Shown piece by piece: positions 5,844-19,200 of a stretch of 64,000 bases of DNA. Every line of letters begins with the position of its first letter. Within the stretch, counting starts at the first letter, position 1. Source of the stretch: Cyanobacteria bacterium RM1_2_2 (GTDB taxonomy: Bacteria; Cyanobacteriota; Cyanobacteriia; Elainellales; Elainellaceae); contig JAAUQT010000002.1 in the NCBI GenBank assembly GCA_012033495.1, positions 16,658 through 80,657 of the forward strand. Direction: 5' to 3'. Under the pieces are notes generated by a model. That model did not search any database, was not told the origin of the DNA, and was given only the letters and a program-made list of their open reading frames with translations. The position numbers were made by a program, and so were the translations under genes.

Positions 5844-6203
5844 ATGGCGCTAGCAGTGAACGAACTAACCTTTAAACAAGAAGTTTTAGGATCGGCAACC
5901 CCTGTTTTAGTAAATTTTTGGGCCCCCTGGTGTGGCGTTTGCCGAATGGTAAACCCCATGCTGACCGAGATTCAGTCTGAGTGGAACGGTCAAATTAAAT
6001 TAGTCAGTGTTAATGCTGATGAAAACTTACGTCTTGCCAGCCTTCACAAACTCACCACCTTGCCAACGGTGATCCTGTTTGAGCGCGGGCAAGTGCTGTG
6101 TCGGTTAGAACAATTTAAAGGGCGAGATGATTTTCGCCATGCTTCAGCCGATTTACAAAAAAGCCTGGAACAAATTATGCTGCGCTACAGCTATTCTGCT
6201 TGA
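5844..6203 (+). CDS. Thioredoxin family protein with WCGVC active site
   Basis: The 119-aa product has the thioredoxin fold order and a redox motif WAPWCGVC near residues 28-35, then VSVNADEN and the cis-Pro loop TLPTVILF. The usual Pro between the cysteines (WCGPC) is replaced by Val, as in the atypical cyanobacterial TrxC-type class, so redox potential and partners may differ from TrxA or TrxM. An AGAGG ribosome-binding site precedes the ATG. It lies 51 bp downstream of the NnrU-like gene and may be cotranscribed. Confidence 0.85.
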   Translation: MALAVNELTFKQEVLGSATPVLVNFWAPWCGVCRMVNPMLTEIQSEWNGQIKLVSVNADENLRLASLHKLTTLPTVILFERGQVLCRLEQFKGRDDFRHASADLQKSLEQIMLRYSYSA

Positions 6204-6808: not shown

Positions 6809-8566
6809 ATGAACGGTTTTCCAGATTTTTCGAGTTATGGCTATCAGGTCGAAAAGGAGTTGGGCTGTAATCGAGCAGGGGGCAGAGTGACCTATCTAGC
6901 TCAAGCAAATGATTCCAACCTGTGGGTAGTCATTAAACAATTTCAGTTTGCTCGCTCGTCCGGCGGTTGGGAAAGCTATGACCTCTATCGTCGAGAGATT
7001 GAAGTTTTGCGCGGGCTGAACCATCCTGGAATTCCCCGATATCTTAACTCGTTTCAAACTGAGGCAGGCTTCTGTATTGTGCAAGAGTACAAGCCTGCTA
7101 TCTCTTTGGGAATTAGCCGCAGCTTTAGCTCAGATGAGATTTGTCAAATTGCTAAGTCTGTTCTAGAAATTTTGGTTTATCTGCAAAACCGAATTCCTCT
7201 TGTCATTCACCGAGATATTAAACCTGAAAATATTTTGGTAGATGAACAGATGAATGTTTACCTAATCGATTTTGGGTTTGCCAGAATTGGCGAAGGCGAG
7301 GTGGGCATCAGCAGTGCGGTGAAAGGAACGCTAGGCTTTATGCCGCCAGAACAGCTATTCAACCGTCAGCTTACCGAAGCCTCTGACCTGTATAGCCTTG
7401 GAATGACGCTGATTTGCTTGCTGACTCGCACAAAATCGGACCAAATTGGCAATTTGATTGACGTTAACTACCAAATTCGTTTCAAACCGCTACTGCCCAA
7501 ACTCAACTTTCAGTGGGCAACCTGGCTAGAAACCCTAGTTGAGCCGAATCTTAAGGCTCGCTATCCAAATGCAAGCGCTGCTCTAGAAGAGATGCCAGCC
7601 ATTCCGTTACGGTCGCCGGAAGTCAAATGCAGTCAAGCCCAGCTTGTGTTTACAGCCGCCAAACTGGGCGAACAGCTAAGCCAAACCATCACAATTGCCA
7701 ACTTCGTGCCCGAAACGCTGCTTCAAGGCGCTTGGGAGGTAGTGGCTCATCCCAGTGACCCGCCCCATACACCCGATGCCCATGCTTGGATCAACTTGCA
7801 TCCAGCAACGTTTAGTGGCAACCAAATTGAGTGTCAGATCTCAGTCAACACCTATAAGCTCATGGCAGGCACGACTTATCAGCGCACGATTCGGCTAAAA
7901 ACCAACGCATTTCCCAAAACTTATACTTTGGACGTTCAAGTCAAAACTGCGCCTGTGCCGATTCAGCATCTCCGCCTACCCTACGGATTTCTGATGCTGA
8001 TTTTCCTGGGCTTTGGGGCGGCTGCTTGGCTGGCGACTTTGGCTCTATTTGGCGTGGAGCTTGCGTTACAAAATTCCATGACGGTCGGGTTTGGCATCAC
8101 TGTGGGAGCAGCAATCGGCTTTCAAGTGGTCACTTGGATGTTGATTACATTGAGAGCAACCGCAGGGGTTATTGCGCCTGTATTGGCTGGATTGCTGTCT
8201 GGATTGTTGGCCTTGCTGAGTGTACTGGTGACAGACATCACCTTAACGACTACACCACTGATGTTGGGCATCGGCATCGGCATTGTTGGCAGTGTGAGTG
8301 CAGGTTTGGCAATTGGGGATGGGATGGAACGGTTAGTGAAGCAAGGTTTCGGTCGTTTTTTTGCTGCAAGTCTTGCTTTTGCAACTGCTGCTGCTGGCTT
8401 TTCCATCGGGTTATGTCTTGCACCGAGATTCATTAACCCTGTCCTAGTTTTAACATCTGGCGGGATTGGCGCGCTATGGACAATCATTGCCGCCTATGTG
8501 CCCCTTCGACGTAAAGAAATGATTGCTGCCTATCGCCAATTTGAGCAGCACTTAATTCGACCGTAG
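6809..8566 (+). CDS. Membrane-anchored Ser/Thr protein kinase
   Basis: The 585-aa protein starts with a Hanks-type kinase domain (about residues 10-270): ATP lysine in VVIKQF (K43), catalytic loop HRDIKPEN (D136), IDFG (DFG at 154-156) and a GFMPPEQ activation segment end. The glycine-rich loop is poor (ELGCNRAGGRV). A beta-rich region follows (about 280-385), then several hydrophobic segments to the C-terminus (FGFLMLIFLGFGAAAW onward), so it is probably an integral membrane protein with a cytoplasmic kinase. It is convergent with the next kinase; the stops are 43 bp apart. Confidence 0.9.
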   Translation: MNGFPDFSSYGYQVEKELGCNRAGGRVTYLAQANDSNLWVVIKQFQFARSSGGWESYDLYRREIEVLRGLNHPGIPRYLNSFQTEAGFCIVQEYKPAISLGISRSFSSDEICQIAKSVLEILVYLQNRIPLVIHRDIKPENILVDEQMNVYLIDFGFARIGEGEVGISSAVKGTLGFMPPEQLFNRQLTEASDLYSLGMTLICLLTRTKSDQIGNLIDVNYQIRFKPLLPKLNFQWATWLETLVEPNLKARYPNASAALEEMPAIPLRSPEVKCSQAQLVFTAAKLGEQLSQTITIANFVPETLLQGAWEVVAHPSDPPHTPDAHAWINLHPATFSGNQIECQISVNTYKLMAGTTYQRTIRLKTNAFPKTYTLDVQVKTAPVPIQHLRLPYGFLMLIFLGFGAAAWLATLALFGVELALQNSMTVGFGITVGAAIGFQVVTWMLITLRATAGVIAPVLAGLLSGLLALLSVLVTDITLTTTPLMLGIGIGIVGSVSAGLAIGDGMERLVKQGFGRFFAASLAFATAAAGFSIGLCLAPRFINPVLVLTSGGIGALWTIIAAYVPLRRKEMIAAYRQFEQHLIRP

Positions 8567-8609: not shown

Positions 8610-10556
8610 TCAAAACACGAGATCAAGCCCCAGCAAGCGTAGATCCAAACTATACAGGCTGCCCGTTGCTCCATCCCAAGTCGCCAAAAGTAAGCCATGA
8701 GGTTGAACTGGAGTCATCGCCACAATCGGGGCTGGGCTAGTCGTTGCGCCAATTAAACGTCCAGCTTGATCAAGAAAAACAATTTGTCCTTGAGACTCGG
8801 CTACAATGTAGCCCCAAACGGTGGTTGCCAAAAATTGAGGCGTGCTATCAACCCAGAGCCTTCTGACTCGGTAGGGTTTGAGGTCGATCAACAGCACCGT
8901 TCCAGATTGCTCTTCGTCGGTTGCCAAAAGTTGATAGGGGGTAGAGGTTAAGACCATCTGCCGCAGCCGCAGCGCGACCCACAGAGACCCTAACGGATTG
9001 CCGCGCCGATTCATGATTTGAATTTGAGTTCCAGTTGTTTCTTCTCCACTTGAATGGAGGGATGCCGTTGAAGCAACTCCTGCCGTCACGATAGCAAAAT
9101 GCCGGTCATCTAGCGCCAATAAATGAGTTGTCTGTCCATCTTGCTGATTACCATTGTTGTGCTGATCGAGCGGAATAGATGCCGCCAATTGAAACCCTTG
9201 TCTACCCAAAAGCCTCAGAAACTTTAGACATCTGCCTTCGCTAGAGGTTGGAAGGGGCAACCTCACCAGCCAGCGTCCGGTTGGATCGATGGTGGTCAAG
9301 CAGTCTTCTGCCCACGCGGCAAGGGGCGCTAATCGAGTAGGCTGTCTAATCTGACCCACCTCCTCTGTCCCGGAGGTCAACACTCCAACAGAGCGACGGG
9401 TAACGACATAGCAGCCGTGAGGACGGATTAGCAAATGTTCGACTGGCTCTGAGGTGGCTGCAATTTGCACCGAGGGTTGTTTGCCTTGGGTCGGAATCAA
9501 CCAATCCGCGTGATAAGTCTGCTGCCATAGGTGGTGCTGGGTAGCTTGCAGTAGACGAACCGTCTCAAACGGTGCGGTGACTGACTCAGAATCATTTTCT
9601 AAACAGAATGCAGTGGCAACCAATTTAGGCGTTACGGCCAAAGCGGTGATTTGCTGATGGACAATCTCTTGGTGTTGAGGTTGAAAAGGACATTCGGTGA
9701 GATCGGTTGTTGCTAAAAAGTAGGGCTGCGCGAGCGGAATTTGGGAGCCTGTTGCTGCCGTTCCAGCGACCGCACGAATCTCAGCTAGCATTTCTCCGGC
9801 TGAGTGAAACCGCCGGGCCGGTAACTTTTGCAGCGCTCGCATAATGATGGGTCGCCACGCCACCGGAATGGCCGCAGGAAGCTGAACGGGCACATTCAAA
9901 TGAGCCGACATCAGTTCAGCAGGCGTACCGGAAAAAGGGCGATATCCGGCGATTAACTCAAACAGGAGAATTCCAACCGAATACAAATCAGAGCCAACGG
10001 AATACTGCCCATAAAACCGTTCCGGAGCCATGTATGCAGGCGATCCCACAGGTCCATCCTGCTGAGACATTTCTTGGCTGAGCCGAGCAATGCCGAAATC
10101 AGAGATGCAAGCTGTCCAGCCTTTAGCGTGAACATGCAGCAAAATATTTTCTGGCTTGATGTCGCAGTGCACAATTCCACGCTGATGAGCTTGTTCTAAC
10201 CCAGCCAACACATCTGCTACTAACCGAATGCTATGGGGCAAACTTGGACGGATTTCCTCCGTGAGCAGATTCCGCAAAGTCCCACCTTCGCAGTAGTCCA
10301 TCACGAGGTAACGACCTGTTGGAGTATGTTCCAAGGATTGAAACGTCACGATATTAGGATGTTGGAGGCTCAGCAAAAATCGCAGTTCGCGTAGAAACTT
10401 ATGGGTAGGGAAGCGATCCTGTTCTAGATTTTTGAGGGCTACCAAACGCCCAGTTTGCCGATGGATGGCACAAAAGACTTGCCCAAACTGACCCTGTCCA
10501 ATTAGCCCCAGGAGTCGATATTTGGAACGTTTTGGCTCACCTAGATGTTGCGGCAC
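8610..10556 (-). CDS. Ser/Thr protein kinase with C-terminal repeat domain, SpkG-like by context
   Basis: The 648-aa protein has a complete kinase domain: GQGQFGQV loop, ATP lysine K42, HCDIKPEN (D132), DFG at 153-155 and GSPAYMAPE. The Arg of the usual HRD is Cys, so it is a non-RD kinase, which often do not need activation-loop phosphorylation. Residues about 290-648 are beta-rich with repeated tryptophans and hydrophobic strands, suggesting a propeller-like sensor. It is the last gene of the V4R/phycobilisome-domain cluster, 27 bp after the V4R gene. In Synechocystis the comparable operon also ends with a kinase gene (slr0152, SpkG); the equivalence is inferred from context. Confidence 0.85.
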   Translation of the reverse strand: MPQHLGEPKRSKYRLLGLIGQGQFGQVFCAIHRQTGRLVALKNLEQDRFPTHKFLRELRFLLSLQHPNIVTFQSLEHTPTGRYLVMDYCEGGTLRNLLTEEIRPSLPHSIRLVADVLAGLEQAHQRGIVHCDIKPENILLHVHAKGWTACISDFGIARLSQEMSQQDGPVGSPAYMAPERFYGQYSVGSDLYSVGILLFELIAGYRPFSGTPAELMSAHLNVPVQLPAAIPVAWRPIIMRALQKLPARRFHSAGEMLAEIRAVAGTAATGSQIPLAQPYFLATTDLTECPFQPQHQEIVHQQITALAVTPKLVATAFCLENDSESVTAPFETVRLLQATQHHLWQQTYHADWLIPTQGKQPSVQIAATSEPVEHLLIRPHGCYVVTRRSVGVLTSGTEEVGQIRQPTRLAPLAAWAEDCLTTIDPTGRWLVRLPLPTSSEGRCLKFLRLLGRQGFQLAASIPLDQHNNGNQQDGQTTHLLALDDRHFAIVTAGVASTASLHSSGEETTGTQIQIMNRRGNPLGSLWVALRLRQMVLTSTPYQLLATDEEQSGTVLLIDLKPYRVRRLWVDSTPQFLATTVWGYIVAESQGQIVFLDQAGRLIGATTSPAPIVAMTPVQPHGLLLATWDGATGSLYSLDLRLLGLDLVF

Positions 10557-10583
10557 GCTTACTCACAAAGGCATCTAGCAAAT

Positions 10584-11237
10584 TTAAGCACAAAGCTGCT
10601 GCATAATTGCATCGTGATCGAGGTTGAGCACCATCGTTTCTATTGGTTCAAGCCGTTTAGGAAGACCCAGCAAAAAGCGGTTACAGTCTGCTCCCATCGA
10701 TTCGCAAGAGGTTTGAATGCAACCAAGTTCTTTGCCTGTTAATTGGCTGAAGAAAGAGGCTAGAATGCCTGCCTCTAGATGGCAAGCAGGCTGATTGTGT
10801 TGGGGTGCCAGACGCGCAAAGGCAGAGTTTTGAATTTTTACGATTAAAAAACCACGCTGTTGATAGGTCTGATCCATTTCAATTTTGCCCCATCCATGCG
10901 CCATCCAGCATTCTTGCAGGGCTTGAATGAATTCAACCATCGGCATATCAGCCAACGGCAGGCTGTAGTAGCCAGTAACTTGCTCGCAGAAGCGGGTGTA
11001 GAAACTTTTGCCCCACCACTTGCCGCAGTTGAACAACACCAGCCGATTTGCCTGTCCGGTCTCTTTATATAAGCCGGAATAGATTGCTTGAATTAAGGTT
11101 TCTGGAACGGCGAGTAGCCGATCGCCTTGGCGATTTTCGAGTAGCCCGACTTCTAAGTCCCCCCGCACATATACATCAGGGGTGAAGAAATTGCCCGGAA
11201 TTCGGTTGTTGACGAGAAGATCAGCGACGGAAATCAT
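10584..11237 (-). CDS. V4R-domain protein
   Basis: The 217-aa product carries a V4R (4-vinyl reductase) domain in its C-terminal half with the typical cysteine pattern (CIQTSCESMGADCNRFLLG), thought to bind a ligand or metal. The N-terminal part includes GKWWGKSFYTRFCEQV, close to the spacing seen in the second V4R protein of this cluster. V4R proteins Slr0144 and Slr0147 of Synechocystis belong to an operon needed for efficient photosystem II assembly, and the neighbours here are the same families. A light-harvesting or PSII-assembly role is therefore likely, but the bound ligand is unknown. Confidence 0.85.
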   Translation of the reverse strand: MISVADLLVNNRIPGNFFTPDVYVRGDLEVGLLENRQGDRLLAVPETLIQAIYSGLYKETGQANRLVLFNCGKWWGKSFYTRFCEQVTGYYSLPLADMPMVEFIQALQECWMAHGWGKIEMDQTYQQRGFLIVKIQNSAFARLAPQHNQPACHLEAGILASFFSQLTGKELGCIQTSCESMGADCNRFLLGLPKRLEPIETMVLNLDHDAIMQQLCA

Positions 11238-11277
11238 AAGAGTGGCAGTGGGTGAATAGAACTAGGCGGTGGTTATG

Positions 11278-11359
11278 GCGCTACGCAAAAAGTTTAGGAC
11301 TCAGGGGGATGGGAGATGTGCCCCGTCAGGGATGGAATCCCTACACCCCGTCTAAACCC
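11278..11359. repeat. Dispersed hairpin repeat, copy A
   Basis: Matches 22665-22749 along its length. The core hairpin is AGGGA-TGGAA-TCCCT here and AGGGG-TGGAA-CCCCT in the other copy, so both sides of the last stem pair changed together. Outer arms GTTTAGGAC and GTCTAAAC can also pair. It is intergenic within the V4R operon, so it would be part of the transcript. Confidence 0.8.
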
Positions 11360-11388
11360 AGACATTGATGGCTATCGCGGATGGTAGG

Positions 11389-11421
11389 TTTGCAGGCAGG
11401 ATTTGCAGGCAGGATTTGCAG
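11389..11421. repeat. 13-bp tandem repeat, 2.5 copies
   Basis: Unit TTTGCAGGCAGGA repeated twice, followed by TTTGCAG. One of three arrays in the window with a 13-bp period. Confidence 0.85.
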
Positions 11422-11488
11422 AAATTACTTTCGCAAGAATTAGGCTGAACTTCAGCACATTAGCTGTCATTTTTGCTGTCAAGCTGTT

Positions 11489-11980
11489 TTAGTGGCTGAC
11501 GACCATCTGTGGAGTAGATGATTGCGACAGTAAGGCTTCTTGAGCCAATGACAAACTAGGGCTTAGATAGCTTAACTGTTTTGCGGTAAGCATTTTAGAC
11601 AACTGCTGATTCAGCAATCGATAGAGCTTCGCATCAATTGCTTTGGTGTCATACACTTTTGCTAAGGGGCTAACCCAAGCCAAAAACCGCCGTTCAACCA
11701 GGCTTTCGTCGTTCACCAGTAAGCTGAGGGCACAGTAGCGCAACATCAACAGTGCGTTTTTAAGACAACGTTCCAGGGTTTCCTCTGATTCTTGCGGTGA
11801 GGCTGCTTCTAGTTGATCAGCCACCGCTTGCACGATTTCCAATTCTCGATCGCGCAGGCTGCGGTATGCATCCAACCGTTCTGGCATGGAAGCGACATAC
11901 TGGCTGATGAGCTTCAACTCTTCGGGTTTGAGGTAGCGATTTTCCGCCTCATCAAAGACGGCTGCAATTTGAGGGTGCAT
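11489..11980 (-). CDS. Phycobilisome-domain (phycobiliprotein-like) protein without bilin cysteine
   Basis: The 163-aa length and all-helical sequence match the phycobiliprotein globin fold. The segment LRYCALSLLVNDESLVERRFLAWV aligns with the allophycocyanin region that reads LRY...GD.S.L..RCLNGL. The chromophore-binding Cys is Phe here (RRF), so it should not carry a covalent bilin at this site. Similar proteins Slr0146 and Slr0149 are encoded in the Synechocystis PSII-assembly operon. A structural or scaffold role is inferred. Confidence 0.8.
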   Translation of the reverse strand: MHPQIAAVFDEAENRYLKPEELKLISQYVASMPERLDAYRSLRDRELEIVQAVADQLEAASPQESEETLERCLKNALLMLRYCALSLLVNDESLVERRFLAWVSPLAKVYDTKAIDAKLYRLLNQQLSKMLTAKQLSYLSPSLSLAQEALLSQSSTPQMVVSH

Positions 11981-12158
11981 AAGCGGATGAAATGGGTAAA
12001 TGAGTAAAGAGGAAATGCCCAGAAATCAGTTTCTTTTAGCCCAATGAATCCCCCATGGAATTCGGAATGACGGAGTTGAATAGTCGTATCCGTCGGTAGG
12101 GGTTGGTGGGTTGCCTCATTTTGAGAATTGGCAGCGGGCTGGACTAGCAAGCCTTGGC

Positions 12159-12238
12159 TAAAACAAGTCAGTTAAAACAAATTGGTTAAACCAAATCAGT
12201 CCAAATCAGTCCAAATAAACCAGTCAAAACAAGTCGGT
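12159..12238. repeat. Degenerate 14-bp tandem array
   Basis: Five degenerate 14-bp units (TAAAACAAGTCAGT, TAAAACAAATTGGT, TAAACCAAATCAGT, CCAAATAAACCAGT, CAAAACAAGTCGGT) plus one 10-bp partial. The array runs into the last codons of the 99-aa gene. Confidence 0.7.
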
Positions 12239-12523
12239 AAATTCTTCTAACGTGAGGGCATCGTCGGCTTCAGCAGATGCGACTGAGGGCGGTTTGAGCG
12301 GAACCGCTGCATCGCCTTCCCAGTTGATGGTGCTAAAAAACTGGCTGACCGTGAGCAGCAGGGGCGAGTGAGACTCGTTGCGAGCAGCTAGCCGCAAGGT
12401 TTGGATCTCTGGCGGATGGTCGTCCCAGTTGATGGCATTAAAAAACTGCTGTACTGTTTGCCTCAGCCAAGCTTGCGGGGGATGGGCACTTGAGCCATTT
12501 TTAGGCAATGTTGCTTGAGTCAT
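12224..12523 (-). CDS. Small protein with two FFxxINW motifs, unknown function
   Basis: The 99-aa product contains two copies of a short motif, VQQFFNAINWDD (about 25-36) and VSQFFSTINWEG (about 60-71), separated by a linker, and ends in an acidic tail (ALTLEEFTDLF). No enzyme motif is visible. Its ATG overlaps the stop of the upstream V4R gene as ATGA (12520-12523), indicating translational coupling and probably a fixed stoichiometry with that protein. The repeated aromatic motif looks like a docking peptide for one partner; that is inference. It may correspond to the domainless member of the Synechocystis operon. Confidence 0.8.
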   Translation of the reverse strand: MTQATLPKNGSSAHPPQAWLRQTVQQFFNAINWDDHPPEIQTLRLAARNESHSPLLLTVSQFFSTINWEGDAAVPLKPPSVASAEADDALTLEEFTDLF

Positions 12524-13200
12524 CGCAAGATTTCTCCAGACCGTAAGCGCTTCTCAATGTCGCGGGCAGTGGCTCCTTCATTCATCCAAAAGGCAGCAGC
12601 ATCAATCCGATCTTGCCCGCCGATCAAGAATTTGCAGTAGGTTTCGCCCATTGAGTAACATTGGATTTCAATGCAGCTTAGCTGTTTTTTGACCAACTCT
12701 GTAAAAAAGCCAGCAAACAGTCCGGCGTAGAGGTAGCAAACGGGCTTACCAACATCGCCTAGAGTACGCGCCACAGCAGAGTCAAAAATATTGATAAACA
12801 TGAAGCCCTGCTTGCGGTCGCCCATGTCAATTTCCCAGCGCCCCCAGCCCTGAGCCGTGAAGGGCCACCACCAAGTTTCGAGCAAGAATAATAGGTTGGT
12901 TTGCCGCATACTGCGCTCAAACTCTTTCTCAAACCAGTTTTCAAAGAAGAAGGCATCTTTTAAGCCCCACTCGCAGCCGATCGTGTACATTGTGGCAGCA
13001 GAGGCATCCCCTACTTCTTCTTGCAGCCCTTCAACCAAGCCAATAATAAAATCTTCGGTGGTGAGGATGTTCTGACCTTGGTTCCAGTCCAGAATGGTTC
13101 CTTTGTCGGGGTCAAACTGGAAAAAATCACGGAAGCCGTAGTGGTTGTGCTTTTTAGGATGTTTGCGTTTGACTGAATTTTGTGCAGTTGCAATTACCAT
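12520..13200 (-). CDS. V4R-domain protein
   Basis: The 226-aa product has a C-terminal V4R domain with the conserved cysteine pattern (CIEIQCYSMGETYCKFLIGG) preceded by the LYAGLFAGFF helix, and an N-terminal region with IGCEWGLKDAFFFENWFEKE. It is paralogous to the V4R protein at 10584-11237 but longer at the N-terminus, and it overlaps the FFxxINW gene by 4 bp. In Synechocystis two V4R genes likewise sit in the PSII-assembly operon. The Cys/Tyr arrangement suggests a metal or tetrapyrrole-related ligand, which cannot be decided from sequence. Confidence 0.85.
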   Translation of the reverse strand: MVIATAQNSVKRKHPKKHNHYGFRDFFQFDPDKGTILDWNQGQNILTTEDFIIGLVEGLQEEVGDASAATMYTIGCEWGLKDAFFFENWFEKEFERSMRQTNLLFLLETWWWPFTAQGWGRWEIDMGDRKQGFMFINIFDSAVARTLGDVGKPVCYLYAGLFAGFFTELVKKQLSCIEIQCYSMGETYCKFLIGGQDRIDAAAFWMNEGATARDIEKRLRSGEILR

Positions 13201-13314
13201 AATTGATCCTTCGTTGATTCTGGTGACAGATGCTAGTTACAGAGGGGTTGAAAAAAGGGGTTGAAAAAAAACAAAGCCTTGCTGCAATTGCAGGTCATGA
13301 CAGCCCGTAGGCTG

Positions 13315-13791
13315 CTAGGTGAGGGTTCCCAAGGTGCGACGGCTCAATTCCAAAAGAGGACACACTAAATTAGCTTGTGGAGCCGTCAGCGACTGTTTCA
13401 CGACTTCTTGGAGCACTTGATAGGTTAAGTTGCAACTGCGCTGGGCGCCAAATGCTCGCATGATGGTTTGAAACCAGAGCAACAGCCGTTCCCGAAATGT
13501 CTCGGTATCATCCATGAGGACAGCAACAGCAACGTAACGCATGACTCGCAGAGTATCACGCTTCCACTTCGCGCTGAGGTCGTCTCCCCCATGGCTGAAC
13601 ACACTCGGATCGATGGAGCGCATTTTGGTATAGGTTTGCTGAACGAGGGTTGTTTCTAACTCTTGAAGTCTCTGATAAGTCTGAACACGCAAGTTGAAGG
13701 AGCGCACATAGTCGATAGCAAAGGTCAATTCAGCATCGCTGGCGTAGCGACCGTCGATTTCACGGGTGAGGCGTTCAAGCTGGCTCAACAT
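13315..13791 (-). CDS. Phycobilisome-domain protein without bilin cysteine
   Basis: The 158-aa all-helical product resembles phycobiliprotein alpha/beta subunits: MRYVAVAVLMDDTETFRERLLLWF aligns with the bilin-attachment helix, but the chromophore Cys is Leu (RERLLLW). It is the second phycobilisome-like gene in the cluster. Non-chromophorylated homologues of this kind are known from the Synechocystis slr0144-slr0152 operon. It could form heterodimers with the 11489-11980 product in the manner of phycobiliproteins; that is inference. Confidence 0.8.
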   Translation of the reverse strand: MLSQLERLTREIDGRYASDAELTFAIDYVRSFNLRVQTYQRLQELETTLVQQTYTKMRSIDPSVFSHGGDDLSAKWKRDTLRVMRYVAVAVLMDDTETFRERLLLWFQTIMRAFGAQRSCNLTYQVLQEVVKQSLTAPQANLVCPLLELSRRTLGTLT

Positions 13792-14263
13792 GGACAGAAT
13801 CTCTCTGAATGGAATGCTAGCAGAAGGTCAGATTGAGATGAAGCTAATTAGACAGGTCCTTGGACAAATTGGACAATTTGTAGCAACAGTTGCTTTCGTG
13901 GAAAGGAAATAGGGGCTTACCATTAGCAGATCATGGAACCCCTTACCTCCCATTGTTTTCAAGTCTGCAACTGAGTACCATCAAGTCTAAAATTCCTCCT
14001 TCATCATAAAAGTAGGAACTTTTTTCAGTATTCCCTGGTTTGCTATTCTCAATGCAACAATGAGAAAGTTTAAGCATGGCTGCTGTTTGTCAGATCTGAA
14101 ATATAGCAATAGATATAGCAGTCCTAAAGGATCGGTAGAAGAGGGTAGAGGGAGTAAAACCCTCTCCTTGGAAAGGACTCAAACCTCTCTTGTTTTTTTC
14201 ATATTCATAGATGATTTGGGATGGCTATAGATCTGTTGAAAAGATCTGTTGAAATCACTCTGC
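13792..14263. other. Intergenic gap inside the V4R cluster
   Basis: About 470 bp with no ORF. It contains a GAGGGTAGAGGGAGTAAAACCCTCTCC hairpin-like segment near 14138-14165 and a T-rich stretch after it on the plus strand. The gap may separate two transcription units, ferredoxin plus the 338-aa gene upstream and the phycobilisome/V4R genes downstream. Confidence 0.45.
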
Positions 14264-14749
14264 CTAAACATCACTGCTGCGGGAAAAGAATTCACCAAAG
14301 TTAAGATTAGTGCTTTTCTCAATCTGTTTCAGCATCGAGCGGGTAATCAGCTTGCCTTCTTCGACCAGCACTTGCCCTGTGATCGGATGCAGGAGATTTT
14401 GCTCAGCCCGGCGTCCAATTAAGGCTTCGATGTCTTGAATGGAGTTAATGTACATACCGGGCGGCAGTTCCACCACCACACCGTTAGAGACGACCCTGGC
14501 CTGACAGGCCAGCCGCGAATTATTCTGGCAGGAAGTAATGACTTCTAGGGTTCTTTGCTCTCGACGGTTGATGGGGGTCAGAGCTGCCATGCCATCTTTA
14601 ACATAGACATGGCAGGTAGCACACATTCCCCGACCACCGCATTCTCGCAGTACATCTAGATCTTTCGAGATCAAGACAGATAATAAATTGCCATTCGTTT
14701 CGACGGCTGTTTCTTGGGCAATCGGTTCTAGCCGCACGATCTTCACCAT
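14264..14749 (-). CDS. 2Fe-2S ferredoxin with C-terminal extension
   Basis: The 161-aa protein has an N-terminal 2Fe-2S fold with cluster cysteines C37, C43 and C46 (CGGRGMCATC) and C82 (RLACQARV). The C-x5-C-x2-C spacing resembles adrenodoxin-type and bacterial-type ferredoxins rather than plant-type PetF (C-x4-C). Residues about 100-161 form an extra helical tail (IEALIGRRAEQNLL). Ferredoxin-like proteins Slr0148 and Slr0150 occur in the comparable Synechocystis operon. It probably transfers electrons in the same process as the V4R proteins, but the partner is unknown. Confidence 0.85.
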   Translation of the reverse strand: MVKIVRLEPIAQETAVETNGNLLSVLISKDLDVLRECGGRGMCATCHVYVKDGMAALTPINRREQRTLEVITSCQNNSRLACQARVVSNGVVVELPPGMYINSIQDIEALIGRRAEQNLLHPITGQVLVEEGKLITRSMLKQIEKSTNLNFGEFFSRSSDV

Positions 14750-15054
14750 TCCACCTTTGCTCCTTAACTCTGTACTTGAAAAAAGTTTTAGCCAGAACTG
14801 ACATTATTCAACTTCAGCAAAGCTCAACATAGGTCAAACTCAACTTAGGATCGTGGATTGAATCAATCCGTCAACTGGACAGGCGGGGTTTGCAGATCAA
14901 TGGGCATCCTGCAATGGATTTGATAGCAAAACCTGCCCCTACCAATTATTGAACTTATTTCATTCCCATTCCTTAGCCAAATCCCACTGGGATTGTAACG
15001 CTTACAGTCTTCACCTTCAGTCCTACAAGCTTCAGTTCTACTTGCCTTAAAGCA
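14750..15054. other. Intergenic gap with dispersed repeat
   Basis: About 305 bp between the ferredoxin and the 338-aa gene. Most of it is occupied by the 87-bp repeat described separately. Confidence 0.5.
14844..14930 (+). repeat. 87-bp dispersed repeat, copy A (inverted copy at 53579-53665)
   Basis: Aligned by eye with the reverse complement of 53579-53665, I count about 10 mismatches over 87 positions and no gaps. Both start CTTAGGATCGTGGATTGAAT and share CAGATCAATGGGCATCC. Copy A is intergenic; copy B abuts the reconstructed PBP stop codon. Confidence 0.85.
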
Positions 15055-16071
15055 TTAATCAACTGAGCGAGGTGGCTGAAATAAGATCGCTTTTTGCTGT
15101 TCGGTCAAGACTTGCTGCGCGATTTTAGTGAAATCTCGGATGACCTTAGAACATCGTTCCATGAAAGCTGCAACCCACACTTGAAGCCATCTATGCTGTT
15201 CGGGCGTTAGACTGGGAAGAGGCTGAGAAGGATTTTCCACTGAGAAGGTCATCTGAGTTGAGCGCTCGATCTGAAAGTGATTGAGCCAATCAATTGCAGG
15301 ACGAGTAGACTTCCAATAGTTCGCAACTACCAGAGTTCCCAAATATTGGGTGGTTAGCTGATTGAGCGCATTAACTGCTGCCAGCACATCTTTCATGTCT
15401 ATAGACAGATCTGGCGGCAGGTCTACAAGATGCGAGGCTGAAGCAGCAATCTGGGATGGATTGAGTTGCTCCTCCGGCAAGGCAATCGGTGGATGAGCTG
15501 AGGGTGAGGTCGCTTGGAATGGAGTGGGCTGTTTGTGGATAGGCACGACCTGCACAGTTTCAGTCTTAGCTTTGGTTTCAGTCTTAGCTTTGTGCAGATT
15601 AGCGGGTTGATGATTTGGCGACTCATCTGCTGGTGCAGAGGGTTGTGCAGGTTCGAGGACGGGTTTTGAATTTTGCTGTACGGGTTGCCAAACCAGAGGA
15701 ATTTGGGCGGCAATGGCTTGAAAAGCGGTAATTGGATCTCCTTGATCAAGCTGCAACTCTAAGAGCACCCGCCTCACAGCTTGCGTATAGGTCGCTTGGG
15801 GTAGGGTGTTGCCAGTGAGCACCAGCAGGGTAATACCTCGATTCAATTTGTGTAGGTAAATGCGGTAGAAGTCGAACTGAAACTCGAAGGAATTGAAGCC
15901 GTCTGGTGTGGTTTCGAGGACTTGCTGAATGCCCTGCGCAATTGCCTTTTGTTGAGAAGCGTCAAAATTAGCACCGAACCCGTGAAAATAGGGACGAGAT
16001 AGCCCATCAATGAGAGCAATGCCCGCAATTCCTGGTACAGTCAAAAAATCCTGAATAACCTCCTGTTTCAT
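15055..16071 (-). CDS. Unknown protein with roadblock-like N-terminus, first gene of the V4R cluster
   Basis: The 338-aa product has an N-terminal alpha/beta domain of about 110 residues (VPGIAGIALIDGLSRPYF, later FYRIYLHKLNRGITLLVLTG) whose pattern resembles roadblock/LC7 domains. Next comes a low-complexity Gln/Pro/Lys linker with a duplicated AKTETK segment, then a helical C-terminal domain of about 120 residues (DVLAAVNALNQLTTQYLGTL). I do not recognise the full-length family. It is the promoter-proximal gene, divergent from rbcR. Roadblock domains often regulate GTPases or assemble complexes, so an adaptor role is possible but unproven. Confidence 0.65.
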   Translation of the reverse strand: MKQEVIQDFLTVPGIAGIALIDGLSRPYFHGFGANFDASQQKAIAQGIQQVLETTPDGFNSFEFQFDFYRIYLHKLNRGITLLVLTGNTLPQATYTQAVRRVLLELQLDQGDPITAFQAIAAQIPLVWQPVQQNSKPVLEPAQPSAPADESPNHQPANLHKAKTETKAKTETVQVVPIHKQPTPFQATSPSAHPPIALPEEQLNPSQIAASASHLVDLPPDLSIDMKDVLAAVNALNQLTTQYLGTLVVANYWKSTRPAIDWLNHFQIERSTQMTFSVENPSQPLPSLTPEQHRWLQVWVAAFMERCSKVIRDFTKIAQQVLTEQQKAILFQPPRSVD

Positions 16072-16241: not shown

Positions 16242-16365
16242 CGCTTGGTGTTGTACTTCTTTAACTTAAGCGTTCAATTATCCGAATCCCTTGTATGATG
16301 TCCATCTCAGGGAGTACGGTTTACCGAGTGTTACGGCTTTCCTTCCAAATTTGGATTTAACAGCC

Positions 16366-17376
16366 ATGTCTGATCTTCCTTTTACTCTGGATCAGTTACG
16401 CATTCTTAAGGCAATTGCTGCTGAAGGAAGCTTTAAGCGTGCGGCTGATAGCCTTTATGTTTCTCAGCCTGCTGTGAGTCTTCAGGTACAAAACCTGGAA
16501 CGCCAGCTTGATGTGCCTTTGTTCGACCGGGGTGGCCGCCGCGCCCAGTTGACCGAGGCAGGTCATTTGCTGCTGAGCTATGGCGATCGCATTTTGAGCC
16601 TGTGTGAGGAAACCTGCCGCGCCATTGAAGACCTACAGAACCTGCAAGGTGGAACTTTAATTGTAGGAGCTAGCCAAACCACCGGCACTTATCTGCTGCC
16701 GCGCATGTTGGGCTTGTTTCGCCAAAAATATCCGGATGTAGCAGTTCAACTGCATGTTCATTCCACCCGGCGCACGGCTTGGAGTGTGGCAAATGGGCAG
16801 ATTGATCTGGCGATTATTGGGGGTGAGATTCCGCCCGAACTCCAAGATTCTCTGGAGGTTGCCCCTTATGCTGAAGACGAAATGGCGCTGATTCTGCCGA
16901 TGTTTCATCCGTTTACTCGTCTGCATCAGATCGAAAAAGACGACTTGTATAAGCTGCAATTTATTGCGCTTGATTCCCAATCTACGATTCGCAAAGTGAT
17001 TGATCAGGTGTTGACGCGCTGTGGCATTGAAACGCGACGGCTCAAGATCGAGATGGAGCTAAACACGATTGAAGCCATCAAAAACGCAGTCCAGGCTGGT
17101 TTAGGTGCAGCTTTTGTCTCGATTTCAGCAATTGAGAAGGAGTTGCAGATGGGCGTTTTGCATCGGGCGCGGATTGAAGGCGTAGTTGTAAATCGCACGC
17201 TGTCGGTCATTTTTAACCCGAATCGCTATCGATCAAAAGCCGCAGAAGCCTTTACCAAGGAGATTTTGCCACAGTTTGCTACGTATGAAGCCTCTGTGAC
17301 GGAAGAGGTCGCTGCCCTGACTGTAGCGGAACATTCCTTGCCCCTTGAAGCCACCACGTCTCATCCGGGTAGCTAA
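16366..17376 (+). CDS. rbcR: LysR-type regulator, RbcR/Ycf30-like
   Basis: ATG 16366 ([11 protein letters not shown]) gives 336 aa with the N-terminal winged helix ([20 protein letters not shown]) and a LysR effector domain ([35 protein letters not shown]). The sequence closely fits the RbcR/Ycf30 group that controls Rubisco (rbcLXS) and carbon metabolism genes in cyanobacteria and red-lineage plastids. The related NdhR and CmpR are alternatives, but the N-terminal wording is the RbcR type. The track start at 16291 adds 25 unlikely residues. It is divergent from the V4R cluster and followed by a terminator hairpin. Confidence 0.85.
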
Positions 17377-17628: not shown

Positions 17629-19200
17629 ATGGAGATCTACTGCACTCGTCCGGGCTGTTTGCGACCGCTGAATCAATTTCCTGACCTGGATGACAGTACC
17701 AAATTGAAGGCAGTGCCCCAAAAATATTGCACTGCTTGCGGAATGCCACTGATTCTAGACAATCGCTACTTTGCAACCAAGCTGTTGGGTAGGGGTGGAT
17801 TTGGGGCCGCTTTTTTGGCAAGAGATCGGCGAACTCCAGGGATGCGCTACTGCGTGGTCAAGCAGTTTCTGCCTGCCGGCAACCTGACACCGGATCAGCT
17901 ACAAACGGCGCTAAAACTCTTTGAACGAGAAGCAGAAGTTTTAGAGGATTTAGGCAATCGGCATTTGCAAATTCCCGATTTGTTGGCATTTTTTCCGCTG
18001 GATGTGCCGAGCCAGTCGGGGCAGGCACATCAGGGAAGTCAGGCAAATCAGGCAAATCAGTTTTTCTACATCGTGCAGGAATTTGTCGATGGGGAAGACA
18101 TGGAAACAGAGCTAGCCCAAAAAGGTCGGTTTTCTGAGGCGGAAGTCTTAGAAATCTTGACAGAAATGCTGAAAATCTTGCAATTTGTCCACGAAAATCA
18201 CTCGATTCACCGCGACATCAAGCCTTCCAACATCATGCGACGACGGGATGGGCTGCTGTTTTTGCTAGATTTTGGAGCCGTTAAGCAAGTCACTGCTGGA
18301 GCCGGAGCCGCCCAAGCTGGACGCTCGACAGGCATTTATTCTATGGGTTTTGCCCCACCCGAACAAATGCGCGGCGACAAGGTGTATCCGGCAACTGATT
18401 TATATGCGCTGGCGGTTACTTGCATCACCCTCCTCACCGGCAAACAGCCCAACGAACTCCACGACACCTACAGCGATACCTGGAACTGGCGCAGCTATGC
18501 TCAAGTCAGCGACCGACTCGAAGCCATCCTAAACCGACTGCTTTTACCAACTCCCAATCAACGCTTTCAATCGGCAGCCGAAGTGCTTGCAGCCCTCCAA
18601 CCACTGCCATCGCCTCATTTTGCCCCCAGCCCAACTCCCAGCACAACTCCTAGCGTCACGCCTCCCGTCCCGCTTCCCGCCAGTCCAGCCAAACCCAGCG
18701 CCACCAAGCTGCAATCCGCTCCCCCGTCTTCTCCCCCCGCCCCGTCTCCGCCACCGCCACCGCCCATCGTCCGCTCCAGGACAACCTCATTCGCCCTTTG
18801 GGAAGTCCTGGCGAGCGCGGCTTTTACCGGATTTGAAGGTGGTTTGCTAGCGATTGCGGTTGCCAGTTTGCTGGGTACGGTGGGGCTTTCGCCTGTGTTT
18901 TGGATGGTTTTGATGGCTTTAGTTGCGGTGATGGTGTATGCCCAAACTCGACGCTGGCTAGAGAAGGTGGATTTGCTGATCATTGCAGGCGTAACCTTAT
19001 TTTTGGTGCGTTTTCTGCCCTTTGCGCTGTTACACAAAATTGTCTTGTTACCGCCGCTCAGCACGGTTGCTCAAGTGTTAGGAATTGGCAACAGTCCACT
19101 GGCACTCATTTTGCTGATTGCTGGCTTCACTGGCTTAATTGCCATTGCCGCAACGGCAGCTTTTCGGCTGATTTATAACCTGCTCTCTCGGCTATTGTGA
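17629..19200 (+). CDS. Ser/Thr kinase with N-terminal zinc ribbon and membrane C-terminus (SpkB-like)
   Basis: The 523-aa protein begins with a four-cysteine ribbon (C5, C10, C34, C37), then a kinase domain with GRGGFGAAF, ATP lysine in VVKQFL (K78), HRDIKPSN, LDFGAVK and GFAPPEQ. A Pro-rich linker (about residues 325-385) follows, then about four hydrophobic segments. The N-terminal cysteine motif is known from SpkB of Synechocystis, where it is needed for activity. The gene is followed after 7 bp by a binding-protein gene, suggesting one operon. The linker contains short QANQ repeats within the kinase insert. Confidence 0.9.
   Translation: MEIYCTRPGCLRPLNQFPDLDDSTKLKAVPQKYCTACGMPLILDNRYFATKLLGRGGFGAAFLARDRRTPGMRYCVVKQFLPAGNLTPDQLQTALKLFEREAEVLEDLGNRHLQIPDLLAFFPLDVPSQSGQAHQGSQANQANQFFYIVQEFVDGEDMETELAQKGRFSEAEVLEILTEMLKILQFVHENHSIHRDIKPSNIMRRRDGLLFLLDFGAVKQVTAGAGAAQAGRSTGIYSMGFAPPEQMRGDKVYPATDLYALAVTCITLLTGKQPNELHDTYSDTWNWRSYAQVSDRLEAILNRLLLPTPNQRFQSAAEVLAALQPLPSPHFAPSPTPSTTPSVTPPVPLPASPAKPSATKLQSAPPSSPPAPSPPPPPPIVRSRTTSFALWEVLASAAFTGFEGGLLAIAVASLLGTVGLSPVFWMVLMALVAVMVYAQTRRWLEKVDLLIIAGVTLFLVRFLPFALLHKIVLLPPLSTVAQVLGIGNSPLALILLIAGFTGLIAIAATAAFRLIYNLLSRLL

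Follow-up and report, generated by a model that had tools for sequence, protein, structure and literature searches.

The slr0144-slr0152 operon of Synechocystis has been tied to photosystem II (PSII) assembly since 2008, and the globin-like proteins called BBAGs have been tied to the origin of phycobiliproteins since 2023. Here we describe a cluster of eight genes, at positions 8610-16071 on the minus strand of a 64,000-nucleotide stretch of Cyanobacteria bacterium RM1_2_2 (contig JAAUQT010000002.1; the whole stretch is called the window below). The cluster is of a known, published kind, the PSII-assembly operon or "cyanobacterial BBAG cluster".

Several products of the Synechocystis operon have been described. 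Slr0148 is Fdx5 and Slr0150 is Fdx4 (PMC7363133), Slr0151 is a TPR protein (PMC4853703), and Slr0152 is the Ser/Thr kinase SpkG (PMC11863333). The proteins Slr0144-0149 interact, as seen by co-fractionation and affinity purification (PMC9880817). Operon mutants grow more slowly and have lower PSII activity (reviewed in PMC9145668), and part of the PSII effects may stem from slr0150-slr0152 (PMC10151467). Non-photosynthetic bacteria carry pre-PcyA/BBAG clusters with a ferredoxin, two V4R proteins and a globin, features shared with the window (PMC10151467). BBAGs of other bacteria bind bilins, and those tested in vitro showed no photochemistry (PMC10151467). The published analysis did not take the surrounding genes further, judging them not to be conserved (PMC10151467).

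All eight open reading frames (ORFs) are present in the window, and none is interrupted. In transcription order they encode a head protein (338 amino acids), a 2Fe-2S protein (161), globin 1 (158), V4R-A (226), a small protein (99), globin 2 (163), V4R-B (217) and a kinase (648). Above curated cut-offs, Pfam finds one Fer2, two Phycobilisome, two V4R and one Pkinase domain in these proteins, and no Pfam or NCBIfam family matches the 338-residue head protein or the 99-residue small protein. Seven of the genes are counterparts of slr0144-slr0149 and slr0152 (SpkG), as Pfam and a comparison with locus L133 indicate, so that the assignment of seven genes to these families in an earlier sequence-only reading holds. 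L133 lies in a one-contig 3.67 Mb relative (G014) and runs V4R-A, small repeat protein, globin 2, V4R-B, ferredoxin, globin 1, plant-type ferredoxin, TPR protein and kinase. Judged by gene content it matches the published slr0144-slr0152, and on that ground we label it Synechocystis-type. The membership and anatomy of the window cluster are, in our estimate, nearly certain. The host is a 5.54 Mb cyanobacterial draft genome with D1/D2. Among named relatives, Pegethrix bostrychoides has the most similar V4R-A (92%). The host genome encodes PcyA away from the cluster, and among the genes examined are eight phycobiliprotein genes of the C-x-R-D type. Its V4R domains are confined to the window cluster.

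The window shares with slr0144-slr0152 a contiguous run of V4R-A, small protein, globin 2 and V4R-B in that order, and ferredoxin 5, globin 1 and SpkG all lie inside the cluster. It differs in its permuted order, with head gene, ferredoxin and globin 1 placed upstream of V4R-A, in the added roadblock-fold head gene, and in the Trp at the bilin site of globin 1. Counterparts of slr0150 (ferredoxin) and slr0151 (TPR protein) are missing, as there is no such ORF between 8610 and 16071. The operon-order comparison proposed in the sequence-only reading thus bears out the four-gene run and fails for the whole operon, given the upstream ferredoxin and globin 1 and the two absent genes.

We counted neighbourhoods in 109 loci with distinct V4R-A, including for each gene only the loci with enough flank. 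The small repeat gene follows V4R-A in 100 of 106 loci, and in 86 of these it overlaps V4R-A as ATGA. Globin 2 is present in 98/103 neighbourhoods, V4R-B in 96/98 and the ferredoxin in 45/76. The neighbourhood recurs in about 100 loci that each have a different V4R-A sequence, which excludes chance. The window-type order is head-ferredoxin-globin 1-V4R-A-small-globin 2-V4R-B-kinase, with a divergent LysR gene. In Synechocystis-type loci the ferredoxin and globin 1 come after V4R-B, and in other loci this pair is elsewhere.

We propose, with a probability of roughly 0.5, that the cluster encodes a SpkG-controlled, scaffolded complex of V4R proteins, globins and ferredoxin 5, and that this complex acts as a sensor or carrier of a tetrapyrrole or another hydrophobic ligand. 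The products would form one soluble or membrane-associated complex. V4R-A, with an intact zinc site, and V4R-B, with an altered one, would make up its ligand-sensing core, and the two phycobiliprotein-like globins and ferredoxin 5 would be the pigment and redox clients of that core. The small repeat protein would join copies through its FFxxxNW motifs, SpkG would phosphorylate or control ferredoxin 5, and the roadblock head protein would be a further docking platform. The ligand is probably a tetrapyrrole, whether a bilin or some other, or a hydrophobic molecule related to these, and the output would be control of photosystem assembly or repair. We infer both the identity of the ligand and the direction of signalling within the complex; the odds on a tetrapyrrole are even, and an output in PSII repair in this organism could equally well go either way. 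The suggestion in the sequence-only reading of a complex that handles a pigment or cofactor, with its biochemistry still open, is in our judgement right.

The gene of the small repeat protein (Slr0145-type; 12224..12523, minus strand) shares an ATGA overlap with V4R-A. The protein has two VxxFFxxxNW[DE]x repeats, VQQFFNAINW (12425..12454) and VSQFFSTINW (12320..12349), both on the minus strand, and an acidic tail, ALTLEEFTDLF. Among its homologues the repeat consensus is [ST]VxxFFxxxNW[DE]G. Two copies are usual, and some genomes have three to five (e.g. L048, L052, L142, L051). At their ends the small proteins have a tail that is acidic and hydrophobic, for example FTLDDFSDLF. The motif is defined by its F and W residues, and 198 of 214 repeats retain the V. 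The DNA pattern of the repeat occurs twice in the 5.54 Mb host genome, both times in the small gene, and the reversed control gave 0. Three loci (L138, L145, L147) have a different but similar gene at the equivalent place, whose product carries W[DN] motifs and an acidic tail. These are deep-branching loci with a single globin, in which two 2Fe-2S genes flank a head-type gene. A second cluster copy (L151:8679-9729) has V4R-A and two tandem Cys-type globins, and the repeat protein is absent between V4R-A and the first globin.

Nearly every cluster copy therefore encodes a repeat-motif protein that has been overlooked. We found no discussion of Slr0145 in the literature searched, and as far as that literature shows, the repeat motif is a new detail. 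The protein is probably a multivalent linker or scaffold. That the repeats bind V4R is possible, though we put it somewhat short of an even chance. We modelled the fused small-globin 2-V4R-B chain of one locus (L105), using the natural reading frames and reading stops as Ser. Repeat 1 had a predicted local distance difference test (pLDDT) score of 88, and the remainder of the small protein was mostly <50. The only two isolated bridge residues in this model are Ser24 in the repeat and Ser389 in V4R-B, which suggests that the two pair; this hints at V4R as the partner of the repeats and is not proof of it.

The two V4R proteins differ at their zinc sites. V4R-A (Slr0144-type; 12520..13200, minus strand) has invariant Cys155, Glu178, Cys181 and Cys189, along with W110-W112, and the Cys-Glu-Cys-Cys (CECC) quartet is present in 113/113 homologues. 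V4R-B (Slr0147-type; 10584..11237, minus strand) lacks this quartet; in its place Cys-Gln-Cys-Asn (CQCN) is found in 77 of 108 homologues, with the Gln and Asn nearly constant. As far as the literature searched shows, this contrast between the two V4R proteins is also a new detail. The closest solved structures to the V4R proteins are the phenol sensors PoxR, MopR and DmpR, and MJ1460. The zinc ligands of DmpR are Cys151, a Glu, Cys177 and Cys185, with the Glu printed as Glu172 (PMC7264223); unlike the printed number, our alignment puts the ligand Glu three residues before Cys177. The quartet of V4R-A was placed by alignment to the PoxR sensor. Since V4R-A keeps the zinc quartet of the phenol sensors, it should hold zinc beside a hydrophobic ligand pocket. 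The modelled fold of V4R-B and the quartet of V4R-A are shared with the sensor domains of DmpR, MopR and PoxR. The window proteins differ from these sensors in having no AAA+ or DNA-binding domain, in low overall identity and in the altered quartet of V4R-B.

The Pfam name V4R and a weak BchJ match of V4R-A could be taken as signs of genuine 4-vinyl reductases acting in chlorophyll synthesis, which would make the cluster a biosynthetic module. We regard this as very improbable. NCBIfam BchJ scores 21 bits against V4R-A, with a cut-off of 74.3, and we rejected a BchJ-type reductase on that large shortfall; in addition, the solved structures nearest to the V4R proteins belong to phenol sensors and MJ1460 rather than to reductases.

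Globin 1 (Slr0149-type; 13315..13791, minus strand) is a cyanobacterial BBAG, a Phycobilisome-domain protein clustered with an Fe-S protein and two V4R proteins. Its Trp76 (TGG codon at 13564..13566, minus strand) aligns on the bilin-attachment Cys of the eight C-x-R-D phycobiliproteins of the same genome. Asp79 is kept, so the site reads WKRD in place of CXRD. Some cyanobacterial BBAGs have CXRD, and the published statement goes no further (PMC10151467). In a first set of 67 homologues the bilin column held Trp in 41 and Cys in 26. Adding 130 loci gave 160 distinct sequences, with Trp in 131, Cys in 29 and no other residue, and Asp is found at +3 in 159/160. As far as the literature searched shows, this alternation of Trp and Cys is a new detail. 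On a tree built without the bilin column the smaller set had 7 state changes, at least 5 of them forced by supported branches; with the larger set and a tree without three columns there were 10 Trp/Cys changes, at least 6 of them forced in the same way. Cys sequences (L091, L045, L056 with L075) are nested within Trp clades.

A single base change turns a Cys codon into the Trp codon, and both are also one base from several other amino-acid codons. A naive estimate of the probability that six chance changes would all be between Trp and Cys is at most about (2/7)^6, or about 5e-4. At +4, 130 of the 131 Trp forms carry Thr or Ala, and at +6, 124 of them carry Arg; Thr123 is invariant in this group; 28 of the 29 Cys forms have neither the Thr/Ala nor the Arg. 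The covariation of +4 and +6 with the Trp/Cys state is suggestive: it has the same direction in every informative pair, but the 6 supported independent pairs are too few for significance (p of 0.06-0.25). Two Oscillatoria genomes have a second, Cys-type globin (L126:18203-18660, L127:18071-18583) about 6 kb from the Trp-type globin 1, which means that the two types can coexist.

Globin 2 (Slr0146-type; 11489..11980, minus strand) is the other Phycobilisome-domain protein and has CLKN at the bilin site. We considered its Cys72 as a bilin site and rejected it, as the column is Ser in most of the 109 homologues and the Asp is absent. The bilin motif of globin 2 is lost in most genomes. The description of both globins as phycobilin-free in the sequence-only reading is thus apt for the Trp of globin 1 here and for the missing Asp of globin 2, and it goes too far for the Synechocystis-type globin 1, which has CRRD, and for the Cys that the window globin 2 keeps at the column.

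The globins bear directly on the possibility that the cluster is a PSII assembly or repair module only. On this account its bilin ancestry is irrelevant today, and the globins are former chromophore folds, now dead, that serve as spacers between proteins. The growth and PSII defects of the operon mutants (PMC9145668) fit such a module, as do the loss of the globin 2 motif and the prevalence of Trp in globin 1. A dead pocket does not predict, however, that the Asp at +3 is kept, or that the site is restricted to Cys and Trp with Cys nested in Trp clades. Furthermore, the PSII effects may come in part from slr0150-slr0152, two of which the window lacks, and related clusters with a repeat protein or a kinase occur in two relatives without D1/D2. 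We consider a role confined to PSII unlikely.

Those two relatives (G010 and G035) belong to another class of the same phylum. In G010 a single 18 kb contig (L148) carries a bilin reductase, a globin gene and a kinase in one direction and, in the opposite direction, a ferredoxin, V4R-A, a three-repeat protein, a globin, V4R-B, a heme oxygenase and a kinase. The globin beside the kinase and bilin reductase (L148:5115-5921) has 268 amino acids and resembles two globin units in one chain. Two G010 globins have VSRD and TIRD at the bilin site, and the Trp/Cys restriction therefore belongs to the cyanobacterial line. In G035 a kinase lies directly 3' of V4R-B. The best-matching kinase domains of the two genomes score 140-160 bits to SpkG, as against 54-56 for the other kinases of the window. 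To the genes shared with the published pre-PcyA/BBAG clusters, G010 adds the repeat protein and kinases; the window cluster differs from those clusters in having no heme oxygenase or bilin reductase. Closer homologues in an unrelated conserved cluster had been named as grounds to abandon the sequence-only reading, and this is half the case, since the nearest related clusters are bilin-biosynthesis pre-PcyA/BBAG clusters (PMC10151467; L148). Because these are bilin-biosynthesis clusters of non-photosynthetic bacteria, it is too narrow to read the cluster as serving PSII assembly alone.

The window kinase (8610..10556, minus strand; Pfam Pkinase) is of the non-RD type, with HCDIKPEN, and has both a kinase domain and the conserved SpkG-type C-terminal domain, which is matched in 82 ORFs. 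Its catalytic part is 56% identical to that of the L133 kinase, which has the same C-terminal domain. The two other window kinases score 54-56 bits against the L133 kinase. Of 77 loci, 55 have the kinase at most 8 kb downstream, and 46 of these have it no more than 700 bases from V4R-B. The window kinase is the SpkG counterpart and not, as had been supposed, an addition at the tail. The ferredoxin 5 (Slr0148) counterpart (14264..14749, minus strand; Pfam Fer2) has invariant Cys37, Cys43, Cys46 and Cys82, and Thr18, Thr67 and Thr72 are kept in 83-84 of 89 counterparts. Of these, Thr18 and Thr72 are the known phosphorylation sites. Phosphorylation of ferredoxin 5 needs SpkG and is lost without it (review PMC11863333).

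Signalling of light or redox state could instead be the primary function. A bilin-loaded globin 1 and ferredoxin 5 would report pigment or redox state to SpkG, and the PSII effects would be secondary. The conserved place of the kinase beside V4R-B agrees with this, as do the kinases adjoining V4R or globin genes in the two non-photosynthetic relatives and the salt phenotypes of SpkG mutants (PMC11863333). Most globins carry Trp, though, and not the bilin Cys, and the lack of photochemistry in BBAGs in vitro (PMC10151467) also speaks against it. We find it rather unlikely, and the same holds for the accompanying notion that the targets of SpkG are not part of the cluster and concern salt, high light and the desaturation of fatty acids.

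The window has three Ser/Thr kinase genes inside 12.4 kb, at 6809-8566 (+), 8610-10556 (-) and 17629-19200 (+). The first is convergent with the SpkG-type gene, with 44 bases between their ends, and the third carries a 4-Cys prefix domain. A thioredoxin-like gene (5844-6203, +) lies downstream of the cluster, and such a gene is near the kinase in about 1/3 of related loci.

The head gene (15055..16071, minus strand) encodes a roadblock/LC7-fold N-terminus (~1-123), a disordered linker and a conserved all-helical C-terminal domain (~206-330). Its AlphaFold2 model has a pLDDT of 79, and the best Foldseek matches are roadblock proteins, Ragulator and MglB. In the model the N-terminus takes the alpha-beta-beta-alpha-beta-beta-beta-alpha fold of roadblock/LC7. 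It shares this fold with the Ragulator and MglB platforms, and differs from them in its extra conserved helical domain and in being too divergent for Pfam. The head gene is upstream of the cluster in 36 of 90 loci, so it is not the extra that it had been called. As far as the literature searched shows, that the kinase and the head gene are recurrent members is a further new detail. Head-type proteins or paralogues of the C-terminal domain occur in 15 of the 20 cyanobacterial cluster carriers of a test set; neither kind occurs in any of its 8 genomes without the cluster or of its 2 non-photosynthetic carriers. Divergent from the head gene is a LysR-type regulator gene (16291-17376, +) that keeps this position in many head-type loci. 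It has no equivalog above cut-off and is a candidate regulator of the cluster.

Several points weigh against the SpkG-controlled complex of V4R proteins, globins and ferredoxin 5. The ferredoxin, globin 1 and head gene are frequently elsewhere in the genome. Only 50 of the 292 sampled genomes of the phylum carry the V4R genes. Most sampled cyanobacteria thus lack the cluster, so its function is dispensable. The catalytic activity of SpkG has not been demonstrated directly (PMC11863333), and the SpkG-type C-terminal domain was not found in the kinases of the two non-photosynthetic relatives. The fused L105 model has no coordinates or interface scores, joins its genes by stop read-through, leaves out V4R-A and is confident in one of the two repeats. 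Finally, we asked whether the repeats resemble a V4R segment or helix, and rejected the idea because a score-matrix scan showed no excess in V4R.

A broader reading is one that we hold tentatively. Globin 1 may exist in two selected forms swapped by one base (TGY/TGG), the Cys form attaching bilin and the Trp form having a different pocket whose residues change in concert, among them Thr at +4 and Arg at +6. The Slr0145-type protein may act as a scaffold that binds V4R at several points and thereby fixes the stoichiometry of the complex. The whole may be a modular platform for sensing a ligand, older than photosynthesis, with a pigment state that evolution can turn on and off.

The repeat motif is a cheap handle on how the complex is assembled, and the contrast between CECC and CQCN predicts which V4R protein holds zinc. 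The alternation of Trp and Cys in globin 1 opens a direct test of whether bilin attachment matters. The presence of a repeat protein and a kinase in related clusters of non-photosynthetic relatives separates the original function of the cluster from its later photosystem role.

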